DNA of 64,000 nt from Alloalcanivorax dieselolei B5 (GTDB taxonomy: Bacteria; Pseudomonadota; Gammaproteobacteria; Pseudomonadales; Alcanivoracaceae). The notes below the pieces were generated by a model. The model saw only the letters and a program-made list of their open reading frames with translations, ran no database searches and had not been told where the DNA came from. A program made the translations under genes and the position numbers. Within the stretch, counting starts at the first letter, position 1; each line of letters opens with the position of its first letter. The DNA lies in assembly GCF_000300005.1 (NCBI RefSeq), contig NC_018691.1, positions 3,348,001 to 3,412,000 on the forward strand. Direction: 5' to 3'. This document shows positions 3,434 to 39,485 of this stretch, in pieces.

Positions 3434-4525
3434 ATGACGCCTTTTGTTCGTGTTTTGTGCGTTCTTTCCACATTGTCGCTGTGGTGTCTTTCCCCGTCGG
3501 TCCAGGCCGAGCCGAGGACCCTGCATTACGCCACCGCCGTAGCGCCCACCGATCGCCCCAACAATCGGGCCCGGCATTGGTGGGCCGAACAGATCAAGGC
3601 TCGTACCAACGGCGAGATCGAAATCGAAATCCACTGGATGCAGAGTCTGGTGAAATACGCGGATACCGCCCAGGCGATCAGCTCCGGCCTGGCGGATATC
3701 GCCGGGATGACACCGGATTACACCGCCGCCCGTTTTCCGCTCTGGGCGCTGTCACAAACCGAGGTGGGTCCGGGGGATCACTATATCGCCGCCGAGGCGT
3801 GGCGGCGGATGATGGCGAACACGCCCGCTCTCCAGGAAGAACTGCAGCGCAACAACATGGCGTTCATGGCGGTGTACTCCACCGGGCCACGGGTGCTGAT
3901 CAGCAACACCCGGCCCTACCTGACGCCGGAAGACTTCGACGGTGACCGTGTGCGGCTCACGCCGCGCAGCGTGCAGGCGGCGCAGCAGGCGGACTGGGAG
4001 GTGACACCGATCAATCTGACCTTCACCGACATTTACTCCGCCATGGATCGCGGCACCATCAACGGCGCCCAGTCCGCCGCCTATCTGGTGCCGCTGTTCA
4101 AACACCACGAAGTCGCCAAGCACATCGTCGAAACCGGTAACGGCCAAGCCATGATCCTGGAAGCAATGAACCTGGACACCTGGAACAGCCTGACCCCGGA
4201 GCAACAAAAGGTGTTCGAGGAAGTGAACCGGGAACTGGAATTGCGGATGGCGGAAGCTGGCCTGGAAGAGTTGGAACAGGCGCGGGAGATGATTCGGAGC
4301 AACCGCGAATTCCCTACCGAATACCACATTCTCAATGCCCGGCAACGGGCCCAATGGGAAACTGGCTACCTGCCGGTAGAACGCGCCTACGCGGAAAAAA
4401 CCGGCAAGCGCGCACCCCAGGCGGTATCGGTGTTCGAGCGCTTTCAGGAGCGTCTCGGGGAAGTGGCGGCGGAAGTAAAGGAAAGCGGCTACCCCTGGGA
4501 ACGGGATAAGGTGGCGGAACGCTGA
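3434..4525 (+). CDS. TRAP transporter solute-binding protein (DctP type), copy 1
   Basis: A 363-residue periplasmic binding protein of a tripartite TRAP transporter. The signal peptide is at 1-25 (cleavage VQA-EP). DctP hallmarks include MQSLVK after the first lobe, an Arg-containing ligand-binding segment near GPRVLISNTRPY, and SAMDRGTINGAQ in the hinge region. The start at 3434 is supported by GGAGG at 3422-3426. It is followed after 165 bases by a second closely related binding protein and then DctQ and DctM. The substrate is probably an organic acid; the acyl-CoA ligase downstream suggests a carboxylate that is activated with CoA after uptake, but this is inference. Confidence 0.92.
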   Translation: MTPFVRVLCVLSTLSLWCLSPSVQAEPRTLHYATAVAPTDRPNNRARHWWAEQIKARTNGEIEIEIHWMQSLVKYADTAQAISSGLADIAGMTPDYTAARFPLWALSQTEVGPGDHYIAAEAWRRMMANTPALQEELQRNNMAFMAVYSTGPRVLISNTRPYLTPEDFDGDRVRLTPRSVQAAQQADWEVTPINLTFTDIYSAMDRGTINGAQSAAYLVPLFKHHEVAKHIVETGNGQAMILEAMNLDTWNSLTPEQQKVFEEVNRELELRMAEAGLEELEQAREMIRSNREFPTEYHILNARQRAQWETGYLPVERAYAEKTGKRAPQAVSVFERFQERLGEVAAEVKESGYPWERDKVAER

Positions 4526-33315: not shown

Positions 33316-33357
33316 TTGACCCAGATCAGCCCTTTCTCTCGGCCTCACCTTTACGCT
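33316..33357 (+). promoter_or_regulatory. FNR/DNR-type class II promoter of nrdD
   Basis: TTGACCCAGATCAG (33316-33329) is followed 32 bases later (centre to centre) by TACGCT (33352-33357). Both the box and the -10 resemble those before ubiU. It lies 55 bases before the earlier in-frame ATG and predicts anaerobic expression of the class III reductase. Confidence 0.65.
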
Positions 33358-33411: not shown

Positions 33412-35142
33412 ATGACCACACCCCGCCCGGACAGCACGGTGACGGTGAGCACCACCGTCGAGGAGTACCTCAGTCGCGCCGACTGGCGCGTCCACGCCAA
33501 CGCCAATCAGGGCTATTCCCTGGGCGGGCTGATTCTCAACATCTCCGGCAAGCTGATCGCCAATTACTGGCTCGATCAGGTTTACCCGCCTGAGGTCGGC
33601 AGCGCCCATCGGGAAGGCGATCTGCACCTGCATGATCTGGATATGCTGAGCGGCTACTGTGCCGGCTGGTCCCTGCGCAGCCTGTTGATGGAAGGGTTCA
33701 ACGGCGTCACCGACCGCGCCGAAAGCGGCCCGCCCAAACATCTCTCCAGCGCGCTTGGCCAGATGGTCAATTTCCTTGGCACACTGCAAAACGAATGGGC
33801 TGGCGCCCAGGCCTTCAGTTCCTTCGACACCTATCTGGCACCCTATGTACGCCGTGACAACCTGGACTACCCGGCGATACGGCAAGCCATCCAGGAATTC
33901 ATCTACAACCTCAATGTGCCGTCCCGTTGGGGCAGCCAAACGCCCTTCACAAACCTGACCTTTGATTGGACCTGCCCGGAGGATCTGCGTGAACAGGTAC
34001 CGGTGATCGCCGGCGAGGAGCAGCCGTTCACCTACGGCGAGCTGCAGGCGGAGATGGATCTGATCAACCGCGCCTATCTGGAAGTGATGGAAGCCGGCGA
34101 CCAACGTGGCCGGGTTTTCACTTTCCCGATTCCCACTTACAACATCACCGAGGATTTCGATTGGGACGCGCCCAACACGGAGCGGCTGTTCGCGCTGACC
34201 GCCAAGTATGGCCTGCCCTACTTCCAGAACTTCCTCAATTCCGATCTGCAGCCGCATATGGTGCGTTCCATGTGTTGCCGCTTGCAGTTGGATGTCCGCG
34301 AGCTGCTCAAACGTGGTAACGGCCTGTTCGGCAGTGCCGAGCAGACCGGCTCCGTGGGCGTGGTGACCATCAATTGCGCGCGCCTGGGGCACCGCTTCGC
34401 CGGCGACGAAAGCGGTCTCTACCGGGAGTTGGACCGTCTGCTGGAACTGGGCCGCGACAGTCTGGAAATCAAACGCGACCGTATCCAACGCTGGATGGAC
34501 GCGGGTCTTTATCCGTACACCCGGCGCTATCTGGGCACTTTGCGCAATCATTTCTCCACACTGGGCGTGAACGGTCTCAACGAGATGGTGCGTAATTTCA
34601 CCCACGATCGCCTGGACATCGCCACCGAGCAGGGTCGTGACCTGGCCTTACGCCTGCTGGAGCACGTGCGCGAACGCATGCGTGGTTTCCAGGAAGAGAC
34701 CGGCCATCTGTACAACCTGGAGGCCACCCCGGCGGAAGGCACCACCTACCGCTTCGCCAAGGAAGACGCCCGCCGTTACCCCGACATTCTCCAGGCCGGC
34801 ACCCCCGAGGCCCCCTATTACACCAACTCCAGCCAGTTGCCGGTGGGCCATACCGAGGATCCGTTTGCAGCACTGATCCATCAAGACCCGCTGCAAACCC
34901 GCTATACCGGCGGCACCGTGCTGCATCTGTACATGCGAGAACGGCTTTCCAGCTCCCGCGCCTGCCGCCAGTTGGTACGCACCGCCCTGTCCCGGTTCCG
35001 ACTGCCTTATATAACGGTGACGCCGACCTTTTCCATTTGCCCGGTGCACGGCTACCTGGCTGGAGAACACGAATTCTGCCCGCGCTGCGACGACGCGCTG
35101 CTGGCCCAACAAACAACGGTGAATGACACCCACGTGGCCTGA
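33412..35142 (+). CDS. nrdD: Anaerobic (class III) ribonucleotide reductase, large part lacking the glycyl-radical segment
   Basis: A 576-residue NrdD that reduces ribonucleotides under anaerobic conditions. It keeps the barrel cysteines: C83 (GYCAGWSL) and C288/C289 (SMCCRLQLD), plus a zinc site C543, H546, C556, C559. There is no N-terminal ATP-cone: the core starts at VEEYLSRADWRVHANANQ. It stops soon after the zinc site and lacks the C-terminal RVxGY glycyl-radical segment, which is encoded by the next gene. ATG 33412 was preferred for its GGAA site; ATG 33400 is in frame four codons earlier. An FNR/DNR box at 33316 drives it. Confidence 0.92.
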   Translation: MTTPRPDSTVTVSTTVEEYLSRADWRVHANANQGYSLGGLILNISGKLIANYWLDQVYPPEVGSAHREGDLHLHDLDMLSGYCAGWSLRSLLMEGFNGVTDRAESGPPKHLSSALGQMVNFLGTLQNEWAGAQAFSSFDTYLAPYVRRDNLDYPAIRQAIQEFIYNLNVPSRWGSQTPFTNLTFDWTCPEDLREQVPVIAGEEQPFTYGELQAEMDLINRAYLEVMEAGDQRGRVFTFPIPTYNITEDFDWDAPNTERLFALTAKYGLPYFQNFLNSDLQPHMVRSMCCRLQLDVRELLKRGNGLFGSAEQTGSVGVVTINCARLGHRFAGDESGLYRELDRLLELGRDSLEIKRDRIQRWMDAGLYPYTRRYLGTLRNHFSTLGVNGLNEMVRNFTHDRLDIATEQGRDLALRLLEHVRERMRGFQEETGHLYNLEATPAEGTTYRFAKEDARRYPDILQAGTPEAPYYTNSSQLPVGHTEDPFAALIHQDPLQTRYTGGTVLHLYMRERLSSSRACRQLVRTALSRFRLPYITVTPTFSICPVHGYLAGEHEFCPRCDDALLAQQTTVNDTHVA

Positions 35143-35187
35143 CACTTTCACATTGATTTTTATTCAATCCCAAAAAGGAGACACACC

Positions 35188-35379
35188 ATGAACGCTTCTC
35201 TCTCCACTGCTTCCCTGAATCCCCGTGACACTCTGCCCGAAGAGCAACGCCAGCGCTGCGAAGTCTGGACCCGGGTGATGGGGTATCACCGGCCGGTCAG
35301 CCAGTTCAATCCGGGTAAAAAATCCGAACATCGCCAGCGCCGTCATTTTTGTGAGCAACAGGCTCGGCTGGATGACTGA
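35188..35379 (+). CDS. Separate glycyl-radical C-terminal domain of class III ribonucleotide reductase
   Basis: A 63-residue protein whose middle reads EVWTRVMGYHRPVSQFN followed by GKKSEHRQRRHF. This is the C-terminal glycyl-radical segment of NrdD; G32 in RVMGY is the predicted radical residue. It begins 45 bases after the nrdD stop with a strong AAAAAGGAGA site and has its own 24-residue N-terminal extension, so it is a real separate gene, not a frameshifted tail. Its stop overlaps the nrdG start. A TTGA-N7-TCAA palindrome lies at 35153-35167. It presumably docks on the large NrdD and is activated by NrdG. Confidence 0.88.
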   Translation: MNASLSTASLNPRDTLPEEQRQRCEVWTRVMGYHRPVSQFNPGKKSEHRQRRHFCEQQARLDD

Positions 35380-36082
35380 TGTCGGTTCCGGTCCGGCCCT
35401 GCCGGTGGCGGGGCTGACGCCGCTGACCACACTGGACTATCCGGGCCGGTTGGCGTGCGTGGTCTTCCTTCAAGGTTGCCCGCTGCGCTGCGGCTATTGC
35501 CATAACCCGCACATGATCCCGCCCCGGCGAGGCCAGGTGCGGGAGTGGCGCGAGGTCGAATCCTTTCTTGAAACACGACGAGGTCTGTTGGAGGCGGTGG
35601 TGTTCAGTGGTGGCGAACCCACCCGGCATCCGCACCTGTTACTGGCGATACAGCGAGCCCGTGAGCGAGGGTTCGGCATCGGTCTGCACACCGCCGGCAG
35701 TTACCCCCGACGTCTGAGCACACTGATACCGAATTTGGATTGGGTGGGCCTGGACGTGAAAGGGGGCGCGGCCCAAATCGATCGTATCACCGGGCGCGGC
35801 CGGCAGTGGCGACAGTTGTGCGACAGTCTGGATCAGTTGCTGGCCGCCGATCTGGCATTGGAGTGCCGCACCACCGTGCACTGGCGGGATTTCGATGAGG
35901 CCACCGTGGAACGGCTGGCACGCTGGCTGGCCGCTAAAGGAGTGCGCCACTACGCTCTGCAATGGGCGCGACCACAACAATGCCTGTCACCGTCCTATCA
36001 ACAGCCGTCACCGATAGCCAATCCTTTGCCCGATCTGGCGAAACGGCTACGGCCGTTATTCGAGACACTCAGCGTGCGTTGA
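35372..36082 (+). CDS. nrdG: Anaerobic ribonucleotide reductase activase
   Basis: A 236-residue radical-SAM enzyme with CPLRCGYC (C36, C40, C43) binding the [4Fe-4S] cluster, and FSGGEPT for SAM binding. It makes the glycyl radical on NrdD. ATG 35372 overlaps the stop of the small glycyl-radical gene, implying coupled translation; a GTG at 35351 is an alternative. The tight link fits an activase whose direct target is the small protein. Confidence 0.93.
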   Translation: MTDVGSGPALPVAGLTPLTTLDYPGRLACVVFLQGCPLRCGYCHNPHMIPPRRGQVREWREVESFLETRRGLLEAVVFSGGEPTRHPHLLLAIQRARERGFGIGLHTAGSYPRRLSTLIPNLDWVGLDVKGGAAQIDRITGRGRQWRQLCDSLDQLLAADLALECRTTVHWRDFDEATVERLARWLAAKGVRHYALQWARPQQCLSPSYQQPSPIANPLPDLAKRLRPLFETLSVR

Positions 36083-36842: not shown

Positions 36843-39485
36843 GTGGCATCAACGGAACCGGTCTCACACCCCGGCTCGGGGCAGGCGTTGTTCCTTTCCA
36901 CCCTGGCGTTCACTCTGTGCTTCGCCGTATGGACGCTGTTGTCCATCATCGGCATCCCTCTCAGTAAAGAACTGAATCTGTCGGATACCGAACTGGCCTT
37001 GCTGATCGCGACACCGGTGCTCACCGGCTCGATCAGTCGCCCGGTTCTCGGCATTCTTACCGACCGCTTCGGCGGGCGTCCGGTAATGGGCATCCTGCTG
37101 CTGGTGAGCGCGGGCTGCGTCTACCTTCTGACCCTGGCCCGCAGTTACCCCATGCTGTTGTTGGCGGCACTGGGCCTGGGTCTGGCCGGCGGCGCCTTCG
37201 CCGTGGGCACCGCCTACGTTTCCCGCTGGTTTGGTGGTGACCGTCAGGGCACCGCCCTGGGCGTTTTCGGCGCCGGCAACATGGGCTCGTCGCTGACCAA
37301 CTTCGCCGCGCCTTTACTGCTGGTCGCCCTGGGCTGGCAGGGCACCACCCAGGTGTACGCACTGGTGCTGGCGTTGATGGGTCTTGGCTTCCTGGTGTTC
37401 GCGCGGGATCCGCGACACCCGACGCCGTCCCTTACCTTGAGCCAGCGTCTGGCGCCCATGGCGGACCTCCGGGTATGGCGTTTCTCGCTCTACTATTTCT
37501 TCGTCTTCGGCGCCTTCGTCGCCCTGGCCCTATGGCTGCCCCACTACCTGATGAGGGTCTACGGGGTGAGTCTCACCACCGCCGGCATGATCACCCTTTT
37601 GTTCACCCTGCCCGGCTCCCTGTTCCGCATTCTCGGTGGCTGGCTGTCCGACCGGTACGGTGCGCGCCGGGTGATGTACTGGACCTTCATCGCTTGCCTG
37701 ATCTGCACCTTCCTGCTCAGTTACCCCCCCACCGAATACCGTATCCAGGGCATCGACGGCGAGCTGCGTTTCTCTCTGAATATGGGCCTGCCGCCCTTCG
37801 TGCTGCTGATCATGGTGCTGGGGTTTTTTATGTCCCTGGGCAAGGCGGCGGTATTCAAACACATTCCCACCTACTATCCCGAACACGTGGGTGCCGTGGG
37901 CGGCGTGGTGGGTATGGTCGGCGGCCTCGGCGGCTTCTTCCTGCCACTGACCTTCGGCATGCTCAATGATGTGGTGGGCATCTGGCAGAGCTGTTTCATG
38001 CTGCTGTTCGTGCTGGTGGCAGGAGCGCTGGCGTGGATGCATTACGCCATTATCAAGGCCAACCGGGTGGAATGGACGGAACAGCGCGAAACCGGCGACC
38101 TGCCGGAACTGTCCACCCCAAGCAAACTGGTACTGCAGGACTGGCGGCCGGAGGACACCGATTTCTGGGAACACCAGGGCCGCGCCGTCGCCCGCCGCAA
38201 CCTGTGGATTTCCATTCCCAATCTGGTGCTGGCCTTTTCCGTCTGGATGGTATGGTCGGTGGTGGTGGCGCGGCTGCCGCAAGTGGGCTTCGACTACAGC
38301 GCCAACCAGCTGTTCTGGCTGGCGGCATTACCGGGTCTCTCCGGCGCCACTCTGCGGGTGTTCTACAGTTTCATGGTGCCGATCTTCGGCGGCCGCCGCT
38401 GGACCGCTTTTTCCACCGCGTCACTGTTACTGCCGGCGCTGTGGATCGGCTTCGCGGTACGCAACCCGGACACCCCTTATCTGGTGATGCTGGTACTGGC
38501 TTTGCTGTGCGGTTTCGGCGGCGGCAACTTCGCTTCCAGCATGGCGAACATTTCCTTTTTCTTTCCGAAAAAGGAAAAGGGCGCCGCCATGGGACTCAAC
38601 GCCGGCCTCGGCAACCTGGGCGTGAGCCTGATGCAGTTCCTGGTGCCGCTGGTGATCACCACCGGAGTGTTCGCCTTTGCGGTCGGTGATCCGCAGATGA
38701 CCGCCGACGGCGAACGCCTATGGCTGCAGAACGCCGGCTTCGTCTGGGTGCCCTTCATCGTTGCCGCCACCGTGGCGGCCTGGTTCGGCATGAACGACAT
38801 CGCCAGCGCCAAATCCTCGTTCCAGGATCAGGCGGTGATTTTCCGGCGTAAACACAACTGGCTGATGTGCGTGCTGTACACCGGCACGTTCGGCAGCTTC
38901 ATCGGCTTCGCCGCCGCCTTCCCGTTGCTCAGTTCCCATTTGTTTCCCGAGGTGGACGCTCTCAAGCTGGCGTTCCTCGGTCCGCTGCTCGGTGCGCTGA
39001 GCCGCGCCTTCTCCGGTGGTGTGTCGGACCGGCTCGGCGGTGGCCGCGTCACCTTCTGGGTGTTCGCGGGCATGATCGCCGGCGTGATCGGCCTGCTCTG
39101 GTTCCTAGATCAGCGCGATCAACCCGGCGCCTTCGTCGGCTTCTTCGTCTGTTTCCTCTGGCTGTTTCTGGTCTCCGGGGTGGGCAATTCCAGCACCTTC
39201 CAAATGGTGCCCGCCATCTTCCGCCACGAAGTGGCCCGGCTGATGCCGGACCGGGATGCCCGGGAACAACAACTGGAAAGCGACCGCGAAGCCGCCGCCG
39301 TGGTCGGTTTCACCTCCGCCATCGCCGCCTACGGTGCCTTCTTTATTCCCAAGGCTTTTGGCACGGCCCTGGAGCTCACCGGCGGCGCCGAGCCGGCACT
39401 GTACGGCTTCCTGTTGTTCTATGTCCTGTGTCTGGGACTAACCTGGTTCTATTACACCCGCAAAAAAGCGGTGATTCCCTGTTAG
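36843..39485 (+). CDS. narK: Nitrate/nitrite transporter, NarK1-NarK2 fusion
   Basis: An 880-residue major-facilitator protein made of two complete NarK units. The first (about 1-410) resembles the nitrate/proton symporter type and the second (about 450-880) the nitrate/nitrite antiporter type; a hydrophilic linker near 415-450 joins them. Each half holds nitrate-signature GNxG-type segments (for example GAGNMGSS in the first half and GLGNLGVS in the second). A GTG start follows AAGGAGG. It feeds nitrate to NarGHI directly downstream, with narG starting 11 bases after it. Confidence 0.93.
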   Translation: MASTEPVSHPGSGQALFLSTLAFTLCFAVWTLLSIIGIPLSKELNLSDTELALLIATPVLTGSISRPVLGILTDRFGGRPVMGILLLVSAGCVYLLTLARSYPMLLLAALGLGLAGGAFAVGTAYVSRWFGGDRQGTALGVFGAGNMGSSLTNFAAPLLLVALGWQGTTQVYALVLALMGLGFLVFARDPRHPTPSLTLSQRLAPMADLRVWRFSLYYFFVFGAFVALALWLPHYLMRVYGVSLTTAGMITLLFTLPGSLFRILGGWLSDRYGARRVMYWTFIACLICTFLLSYPPTEYRIQGIDGELRFSLNMGLPPFVLLIMVLGFFMSLGKAAVFKHIPTYYPEHVGAVGGVVGMVGGLGGFFLPLTFGMLNDVVGIWQSCFMLLFVLVAGALAWMHYAIIKANRVEWTEQRETGDLPELSTPSKLVLQDWRPEDTDFWEHQGRAVARRNLWISIPNLVLAFSVWMVWSVVVARLPQVGFDYSANQLFWLAALPGLSGATLRVFYSFMVPIFGGRRWTAFSTASLLLPALWIGFAVRNPDTPYLVMLVLALLCGFGGGNFASSMANISFFFPKKEKGAAMGLNAGLGNLGVSLMQFLVPLVITTGVFAFAVGDPQMTADGERLWLQNAGFVWVPFIVAATVAAWFGMNDIASAKSSFQDQAVIFRRKHNWLMCVLYTGTFGSFIGFAAAFPLLSSHLFPEVDALKLAFLGPLLGALSRAFSGGVSDRLGGGRVTFWVFAGMIAGVIGLLWFLDQRDQPGAFVGFFVCFLWLFLVSGVGNSSTFQMVPAIFRHEVARLMPDRDAREQQLESDREAAAVVGFTSAIAAYGAFFIPKAFGTALELTGGAEPALYGFLLFYVLCLGLTWFYYTRKKAVIPC

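Follow-up and report, generated by a model that had tools for sequence, protein, structure and literature searches.

A class III ribonucleotide reductase in two genes: a separate, predicted glycyl-radical subunit in Alloalcanivorax dieselolei and related bacteria

Class III ribonucleotide reductases are described, in the portions of the literature that are accessible, with the glycyl-radical domain at the C-terminus of one chain, as in the single-chain NrdD of T. maritima (4coi/4u3e), T4 and P. copri (8p23) and in the family NCBIfam NF006126 (PRK08270). Small free proteins that carry a glycyl-radical loop are known as spare parts of another enzyme, pyruvate formate-lyase (GrcA/YfiD and T4 Y06I). 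Here we analyse a stretch of 64,000 nucleotides (nt) from Alloalcanivorax dieselolei B5 (NC_018691.1, positions 3,348,001 to 3,412,000, hereafter the window), in which NrdD is divided between two consecutive genes, the second encoding the segment with the predicted radical glycine. A first-pass annotation of this DNA had reported the split and stated that known NrdD carries both parts in one chain, which holds for published descriptions, as far as their accessible text goes, but not for genomes. The observation is right, and its reach exceeds what was first stated: in this NrdD clade a two-subunit class III reductase is widespread, and it is highly probable that the small protein is an obligate glycyl-radical subunit of it. 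The annotation had overlooked how usual the split is in the clade, and also the true orphan copies in phages and bacteria. The parts of the locus are as follows.

33412..35142, + strand: nrdD, large (catalytic) subunit, 576 amino acids; ATG at 33412, TGA at 35140-35142; the chain ends past the zinc site
34270..34281, + strand: finger-loop motif MCCR (M287-R290), which includes the expected thiyl-radical cysteine; unchanged across 19 aligned rows
35038..35088, + strand: zinc-site segment CPVHGYLAGEHEFCPRC (C543, H546, C556, C559), next residue Asp; zinc binding predicted from solved NrdD
35175..35180, + strand: ribosome site AAGGAG of the small gene, 7 nt ahead of its ATG
35188..35379, + strand: glycyl-radical subunit gene, 63 amino acids; docking-like motif LPEEQRQRCEVW, radical loop RVMGYHRPVSQFN
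35281..35283, + strand: codon of the predicted radical Gly32, from sequence and homology to NrdD
35372..36082, + strand: nrdG2 activase (radical SAM, TIGR02495 above cut-off), likely ATG at 35372

The two open reading frames (ORFs), their coordinates and the ribosome site of the small one agree with the first-pass annotation, and nrdG2, from its likely start, shares 8 nt with the 3' end of the small gene, giving the operon order nrdD, small gene, nrdG. The name of the finger-loop motif class follows the accessible part of PMC9669993. Pfam NRDD (PF13597, 562 positions) is matched in two adjoining pieces, positions 2-528 by the large protein (E 3.6e-171, 571 bits) and positions 531-562 by the small one (E 1.5e-8), which supports the earlier claim of a free glycyl-radical protein for a class III reductase. 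The large chain contains no glycyl-radical loop, the RVMGY segment lying on the separate 63-residue ORF; a phmmer search of the small protein against PDB gave matches at chance level only. The system thus shares with single-chain NrdD the barrel fold, finger loop, zinc site, radical loop sequence and NrdG neighbour, and differs from it in having the radical loop on a separate gene, added residues past the zinc site and LxDxER(Q/T) before the loop.

The small protein might instead be chiefly a spare part like GrcA, replacing the radical segment after oxygen cleavage. In favour of this, the segment stands alone as its own protein, some genomes carry orphan extra copies (see below), and the hosts of the loci include organisms known as facultative denitrifiers. 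Glycyl radicals are indeed cleaved by oxygen, according to the accessible part of PMC8683613. A search of the whole genome (4.93 Mb, single contig, 99.98% complete) found NRDD as one copy only, in two pieces, and no other NrdD, so that the second intact nrdD considered in the first-pass annotation is absent, and the small protein, having no intact NrdD to mend, is indispensable from the outset. Nor does anything in the genome match PF01228 (Gly_radical, the GrcA family); the small protein matches NRDD instead, a family other than that of GrcA/YfiD, and would be an obligate subunit rather than a repair copy. An exchangeable subunit could still do repair as a second role, but as its chief role at this locus the spare-part function first suggested is improbable, and it fits the orphan copies better. 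The genome also has one class I/II-type reductase large subunit and, 648 nt downstream of it, a class I small subunit, from which we infer that this sole other reductase is class I; it shows no sign of a class II reductase. With no other NRDD, and the other large subunit probably class I, the split enzyme should be the organism's only oxygen-independent reductase.

In a two-subunit enzyme of this kind, the large protein would keep the catalytic barrel, the MCCR finger loop and the zinc site, and the small protein would contribute the glycyl-radical loop. NrdG2 would install the radical on the small protein's Gly32. The small protein would occupy the position in the barrel held by the C-terminal loop of an ordinary NrdD, and the radical would then move from Gly32 to the finger-loop cysteine. 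The radical subunit would be exchangeable, for example after oxygen damage.

The split recurs well beyond the window. In a collection of 84,980 species' genomes, from which the best 80 loci were analysed, 79 of the 80 have a separate small gene, the exception (L053; L and G numbers are our handles for loci and genomes) lying on a contig that stops 551 nt past nrdD. The nearest of the 80, from Alloalcanivorax xenomutans, is 99% identical and may come from the window's own species. NrdD is present in 5 of 46 genomes of the family and split in all five, and in the class NRDD is matched in 39 of 370 genomes, 30 with a separate radical-segment match, seven with a single full-length match and two with fragments only (row count). 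The genus around P. nitroreducens has nrdD in 14 of 25 genomes, 13 of them with two matches (confirmed as separate ORFs in three genomes) and one with a TGA inside. An even draw of the phylum gave matches in 66 of 397 genomes; only 19 of the 66 are split or have internal stops, most others being full-length (row count), so that the survey proposed earlier bears out the split for the best loci and the class but much less for the phylum. In Actinomycetota, 77 of 246 genomes match and the split occurs only in the metagenome-assembled genome (MAG) used as centre. The split clade contains named Pseudomonas, Cupriavidus, Halomonas, Rhodobacter and Paracoccus records, and within this NrdD clade the split is the usual form, though not everywhere. 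In one Geobacteraceae MAG (L227, G417), two near-identical radical-subunit genes (2509-2808 and 3970-4185) follow one nrdD, and an Atopobiaceae MAG (G416; L086, L134) has both a fused and a split NrdD, with bin contamination possible.

In the window the small ORF shares the frame of the large one, a point absent from the first-pass annotation, and begins 15 codons past its TGA. This speaks for a nonsense mutation, sequencing error or decaying gene, as it does for read-through of the stop codon, selenocysteine or frameshifting that would yield a single chain. Among 118 rows of split loci, which include copies of one locus, the small gene is out of frame in 87 and in frame in 31, the large ORF ends in TGA in 86, TAA in 19 and TAG in 13, and the gap between the genes runs from -38 to +298 nt. 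Since only 31 of the 118 are in frame and the stops are mixed, the shared frame here looks like chance, and the variation in frames, stops and gaps excludes error, read-through and frameshifting as a general cause. Error or decay is refuted by the relatives: the same-site split stands in 79 of the best 80 loci with differing stops, frames and spacing, it recurs in more than 100 loci, and the small gene has its own ribosome site and differs from four relatives by synonymous and nonsynonymous codon changes in ratios of 7:2, 2:1, 17:9 and 19:17. That explanation, which the first-pass annotation had named as a danger, is therefore extremely improbable. A ribosome-like site (at least 4 of 6 AGGAGG letters) precedes all 118 small genes, the start having been picked to favour such a site and ATG. 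A single chain made by read-through, selenocysteine or frameshifting is hardly less improbable; in G1079 (contig C4, L359), about 9 kb separates nrdD from the radical-subunit gene, which is on the strand of nrdD.

Both proteins carry marks that would fit a two-part enzyme. The small proteins have Arg at -8 from RVMGY in 110 of 110 cases, a residue that none of the fused sequences listed has there; at -13, 105 of 110 have Leu. In the large subunit, Asp follows the last zinc-site Cys (CPxC) in all 117 split rows, a count that includes copies. The 11 fused rows with identity of 45% or more lack it and have Gly, Ala, Asn or Lys at this position. The Asp as an exclusive feature of split NrdD proved wrong, being true against these 11 near fused rows and false for distant ones; because some distant fused NrdDs carry it too, the Arg/Leu motif is, as judged from sequence, the only clean mark of the split form. 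Within the radical loop, R+2, P+3, N+8, G+10, K+11 and E+14 and the upstream R and C do not vary among 104 distinct windows; in this set the search pattern itself partly required the R, G and Y/F of RVMGY.

A related locus connects the split to function. The megaplasmid pHG1 of Cupriavidus necator H16 is split too, with a large subunit of 676 amino acids (76.2 kDa calculated), a small subunit of 66 amino acids encoded by H16_RS32675, and nrdG. A 1999 genetic study reportedly gave NrdD as 76.2 kDa, i.e. the large piece alone. NrdDG is essential in H16 for complete denitrification (PMC2864759, in its accessible part), so the split enzyme works in vivo. The plasmid gene table labels the small protein 'nrdD' in many records, so pipelines do detect the small gene. 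In the literature searched, whose coverage leaves most subscription papers outside, we found no description or discussion of a split class III reductase.

The predicted structure fits the same arrangement. An AlphaFold2 model of the in-frame read-through as one chain, built on 112 rows of relatives, reached a predicted local distance difference test score (pLDDT) of 79.9 and a predicted template modelling score of 0.82, with about 72-91 in the small part (from residue 601) and a disordered linker; a previous one built on 19 rows had been weak, at pLDDT 64.1. The model aligns with 4u3e_B at Z 33.6 (539 aligned, model 2-651 on chain 9-647) and with 8p2s_B at Z 32.8 (model 2-647 on chain 85-735). 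Because solved NrdD structures match it over almost its whole length, the small protein appears in the model to sit where NrdD's own radical domain sits. The structure prediction of the two proteins proposed earlier thus fits the NrdD fold, but as one read-through chain, and the fit is on that account consistency rather than proof.

Several points weigh against the two-subunit reading. The docking is not independent, as the model is one chain with a linker and the program was trained on structures including NrdD, and the placement of the radical segment was read from the first and last aligned residues rather than from measured distances. Four near relatives are fused, and the Asp after the zinc Cys also occurs in the distant fused NrdDs L102, L107, L207 and L210. 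For H16, PMC2864759 is a secondary source, and its accessible passage is silent on the small gene.

The trees do not fix how many times the split arose. In a FastTree of the large subunit (131 rows, leaving out near-duplicates, fragments, rows below 45% identity and two thirds of L156-L183), 118 split, four fused and two unclassified rows form one clade with support 100, and four changes are needed. A tree of 64 hand-chosen rows under a better, mixture model needs five changes, of which strong branches force only two; its base lacks resolution, the fused NrdD L356 grouping there with split Sulfuricurvum. The joint from zinc site to RVMGY measures 16 residues in the fused forms of Acidiphilium and Actinomyces oris versus eight in L155 and other near fused rows, and this difference suggests that these two may be re-fusions. 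Separate splits at the same joint occur elsewhere: in G1062 and G1130 (one genus) an E. coli-type NrdD ends after the zinc site and is followed by an in-frame open stretch of 64 codons with RRITGYLVG, and in the viral contig L264 the gene order is large, nrdG, radical gene. Joining of the halves by split-intein trans-splicing would agree with the likely inteins elsewhere in Chromatiaceae NrdD (inserts near profile position 157), but the facing ends, mostly of about 10-25 residues past the zinc site and before the ERQRC motif, leave no room for intein halves, and we give this almost no credence. As an observation in its own right, a long in-frame insert near profile position 157, probably an intein, is found in the NrdD of G441, G448, G455, G481, G494, G511, G512 and others.

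Among reductases with divided chains, class I carries its radical on a second subunit, NrdB, and in that respect is like the split class III enzyme. We know of no homology between NrdB and the window's small subunit, which would be metal-free and bear a glycyl radical. In the split class II NrdJa+b of Pseudomonas (PMC5704485, in its accessible part), a C-terminal reductase part likewise has its own gene, but that part is a cysteine-rich reducing domain, whereas the window's is the predicted radical carrier. Fragmented reductases are also found in phages (Aeh1 NrdA; fragmented nrdD of phiAS4 and Lactococcus phage 949), where the accessible text of PMC3653736 ascribes the pieces to homing endonucleases, introns, inteins or unknown events; the window split, in contrast, is old, stable and at a functional joint. 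The split has practical weight, since enzyme studies that take nrdD alone from these organisms would miss the radical site, and it offers a natural system for how activases recognise the glycyl-radical domain.

Radical-subunit genes also occur away from nrdD. Extra copies are present in G282 and in G449, G479 and G494 of the Marichromatium family (Chromatiaceae), and one orphan is carried on each of the plasmids pAt1 of Allochromatium tepidum and pALVIN01 of A. vinosum. One G449 orphan (L213) is letter-for-letter identical to that of the IMG/VR contig L325. One orphan of G479 lies between a Mu-type portal gene, which it overlaps by 4 nt, and a Mu F-like gene, and another adjoins phage capsid, Mu Gp36 and virion morphogenesis genes. 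From IMG/VR, two scans yielded 111 loci, several of them the same contig found in both: 98 (75 distinct) are without NrdD in the stretch examined, seven have NrdD near, one is fused and five are unclassified (L260, L265, L266, L267 and L340, with no motif or a score below 6). The large NrdD is absent from 37 of 37 whole viral contigs (16-108 kb, which may be fragments), the radical segment being their sole NRDD match. Twenty neighbouring proteins from 12 viral loci comprise 12 (nine loci) that match phage families to which a role has been assigned (portal, minor head, tape measure, amidase, integrase, reverse transcriptase, helicase, replication initiation and tail assembly), two that match unnamed families and six that match nothing. 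Thus the NrdD radical subunit travels alone in phages. The docking-like motif is largely kept in the viral orphans, with Arg in 67 of 71 and Leu in 50 of 71.

A tentative reading, to which we give slightly less than even weight, is that the glycyl-radical segment is a mobile, exchangeable subunit, and that many phages, some of them Mu-like or with integrase or reverse transcriptase genes, carry only its gene of about 40-95 codons, whose product would be charged by the host NrdG and would re-activate or boost the host reductase during anaerobic infection. That a phage can carry a glycyl-radical spare part is shown by T4 (PMC8683613, in its accessible part), the present orphans differing in being of NrdD type. 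If the reading is true, they would extend spare-part proteins for the first time to a glycyl-radical enzyme beyond pyruvate formate-lyase. Whether such parts exist is a question raised in the accessible part of PMC8683613, one that the orphan and phage copies open to testing. The best candidates for true GrcA-like repair parts are in six Actinomycetota genomes (L221-L226; G599, G672, G775, G588, G769, G701), which have an orphan together with a full-length NrdD match; these orphans, of about 106-129 amino acids (start uncertain), have an E. coli-type radical segment preceded by a new N-terminal part, and that of L222 adjoins a methionine sulfoxide reductase gene. A Cys/His-rich N-terminal stretch resembling a metal site (e.g. 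CAH...C..GR...C..GCAAY) was noticed in the orphans L216:2554-2805, L217:830-1222 (minus strand) and L214:2609-2995, and likewise in L232:4004-4246, L274, L276 and L327; those of L216 and L217 lie among Mu-like phage genes. The window's small protein is matched (E 3.2e-7) by the PHROG family phrog_4132, whose function is listed as unknown and which probably contains NrdD-type radical segments.

One further feature lies upstream of nrdD.

33316..33329, + strand: FNR/ANR/DNR-type box TTGACCCAGATCAG upstream of nrdD, with 7 of 8 conserved letters of TTGA-N6-TCAA; putative binding site for such a regulator

A box with at least 7 of 8 letters stands upstream of nrdD in 53 of 79 relatives, against 3 of 79 after single-letter shuffling. 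The palindrome TTGA-N7-TCAA that had been noted between the genes is present, with a spacing that differs from FNR's, but separate control of the small gene through it finds no backing: a box with at least 7 of 8 letters lies between nrdD and the small gene in only 3 of 79 loci, the stretches compared being much shorter there than upstream. An FNR site between the genes was accordingly rejected as not conserved.

An alternative nrdD start at ATG 33268 is possible, the longer form gaining no Pfam domain. The window NrdD has no ATP-cone match, whereas that of C. necator H16 has one, and dATP activity control therefore seems, by sequence, to have been lost. The neighbouring genes are anaerobic, with UbiU/UbiV before the locus and a NarK-family protein and NarG after it. 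The gene ahead of narG (36843-39485) encodes an 880-residue transporter whose second half matches NarK and which looks like a fused NarK1-NarK2 pair.
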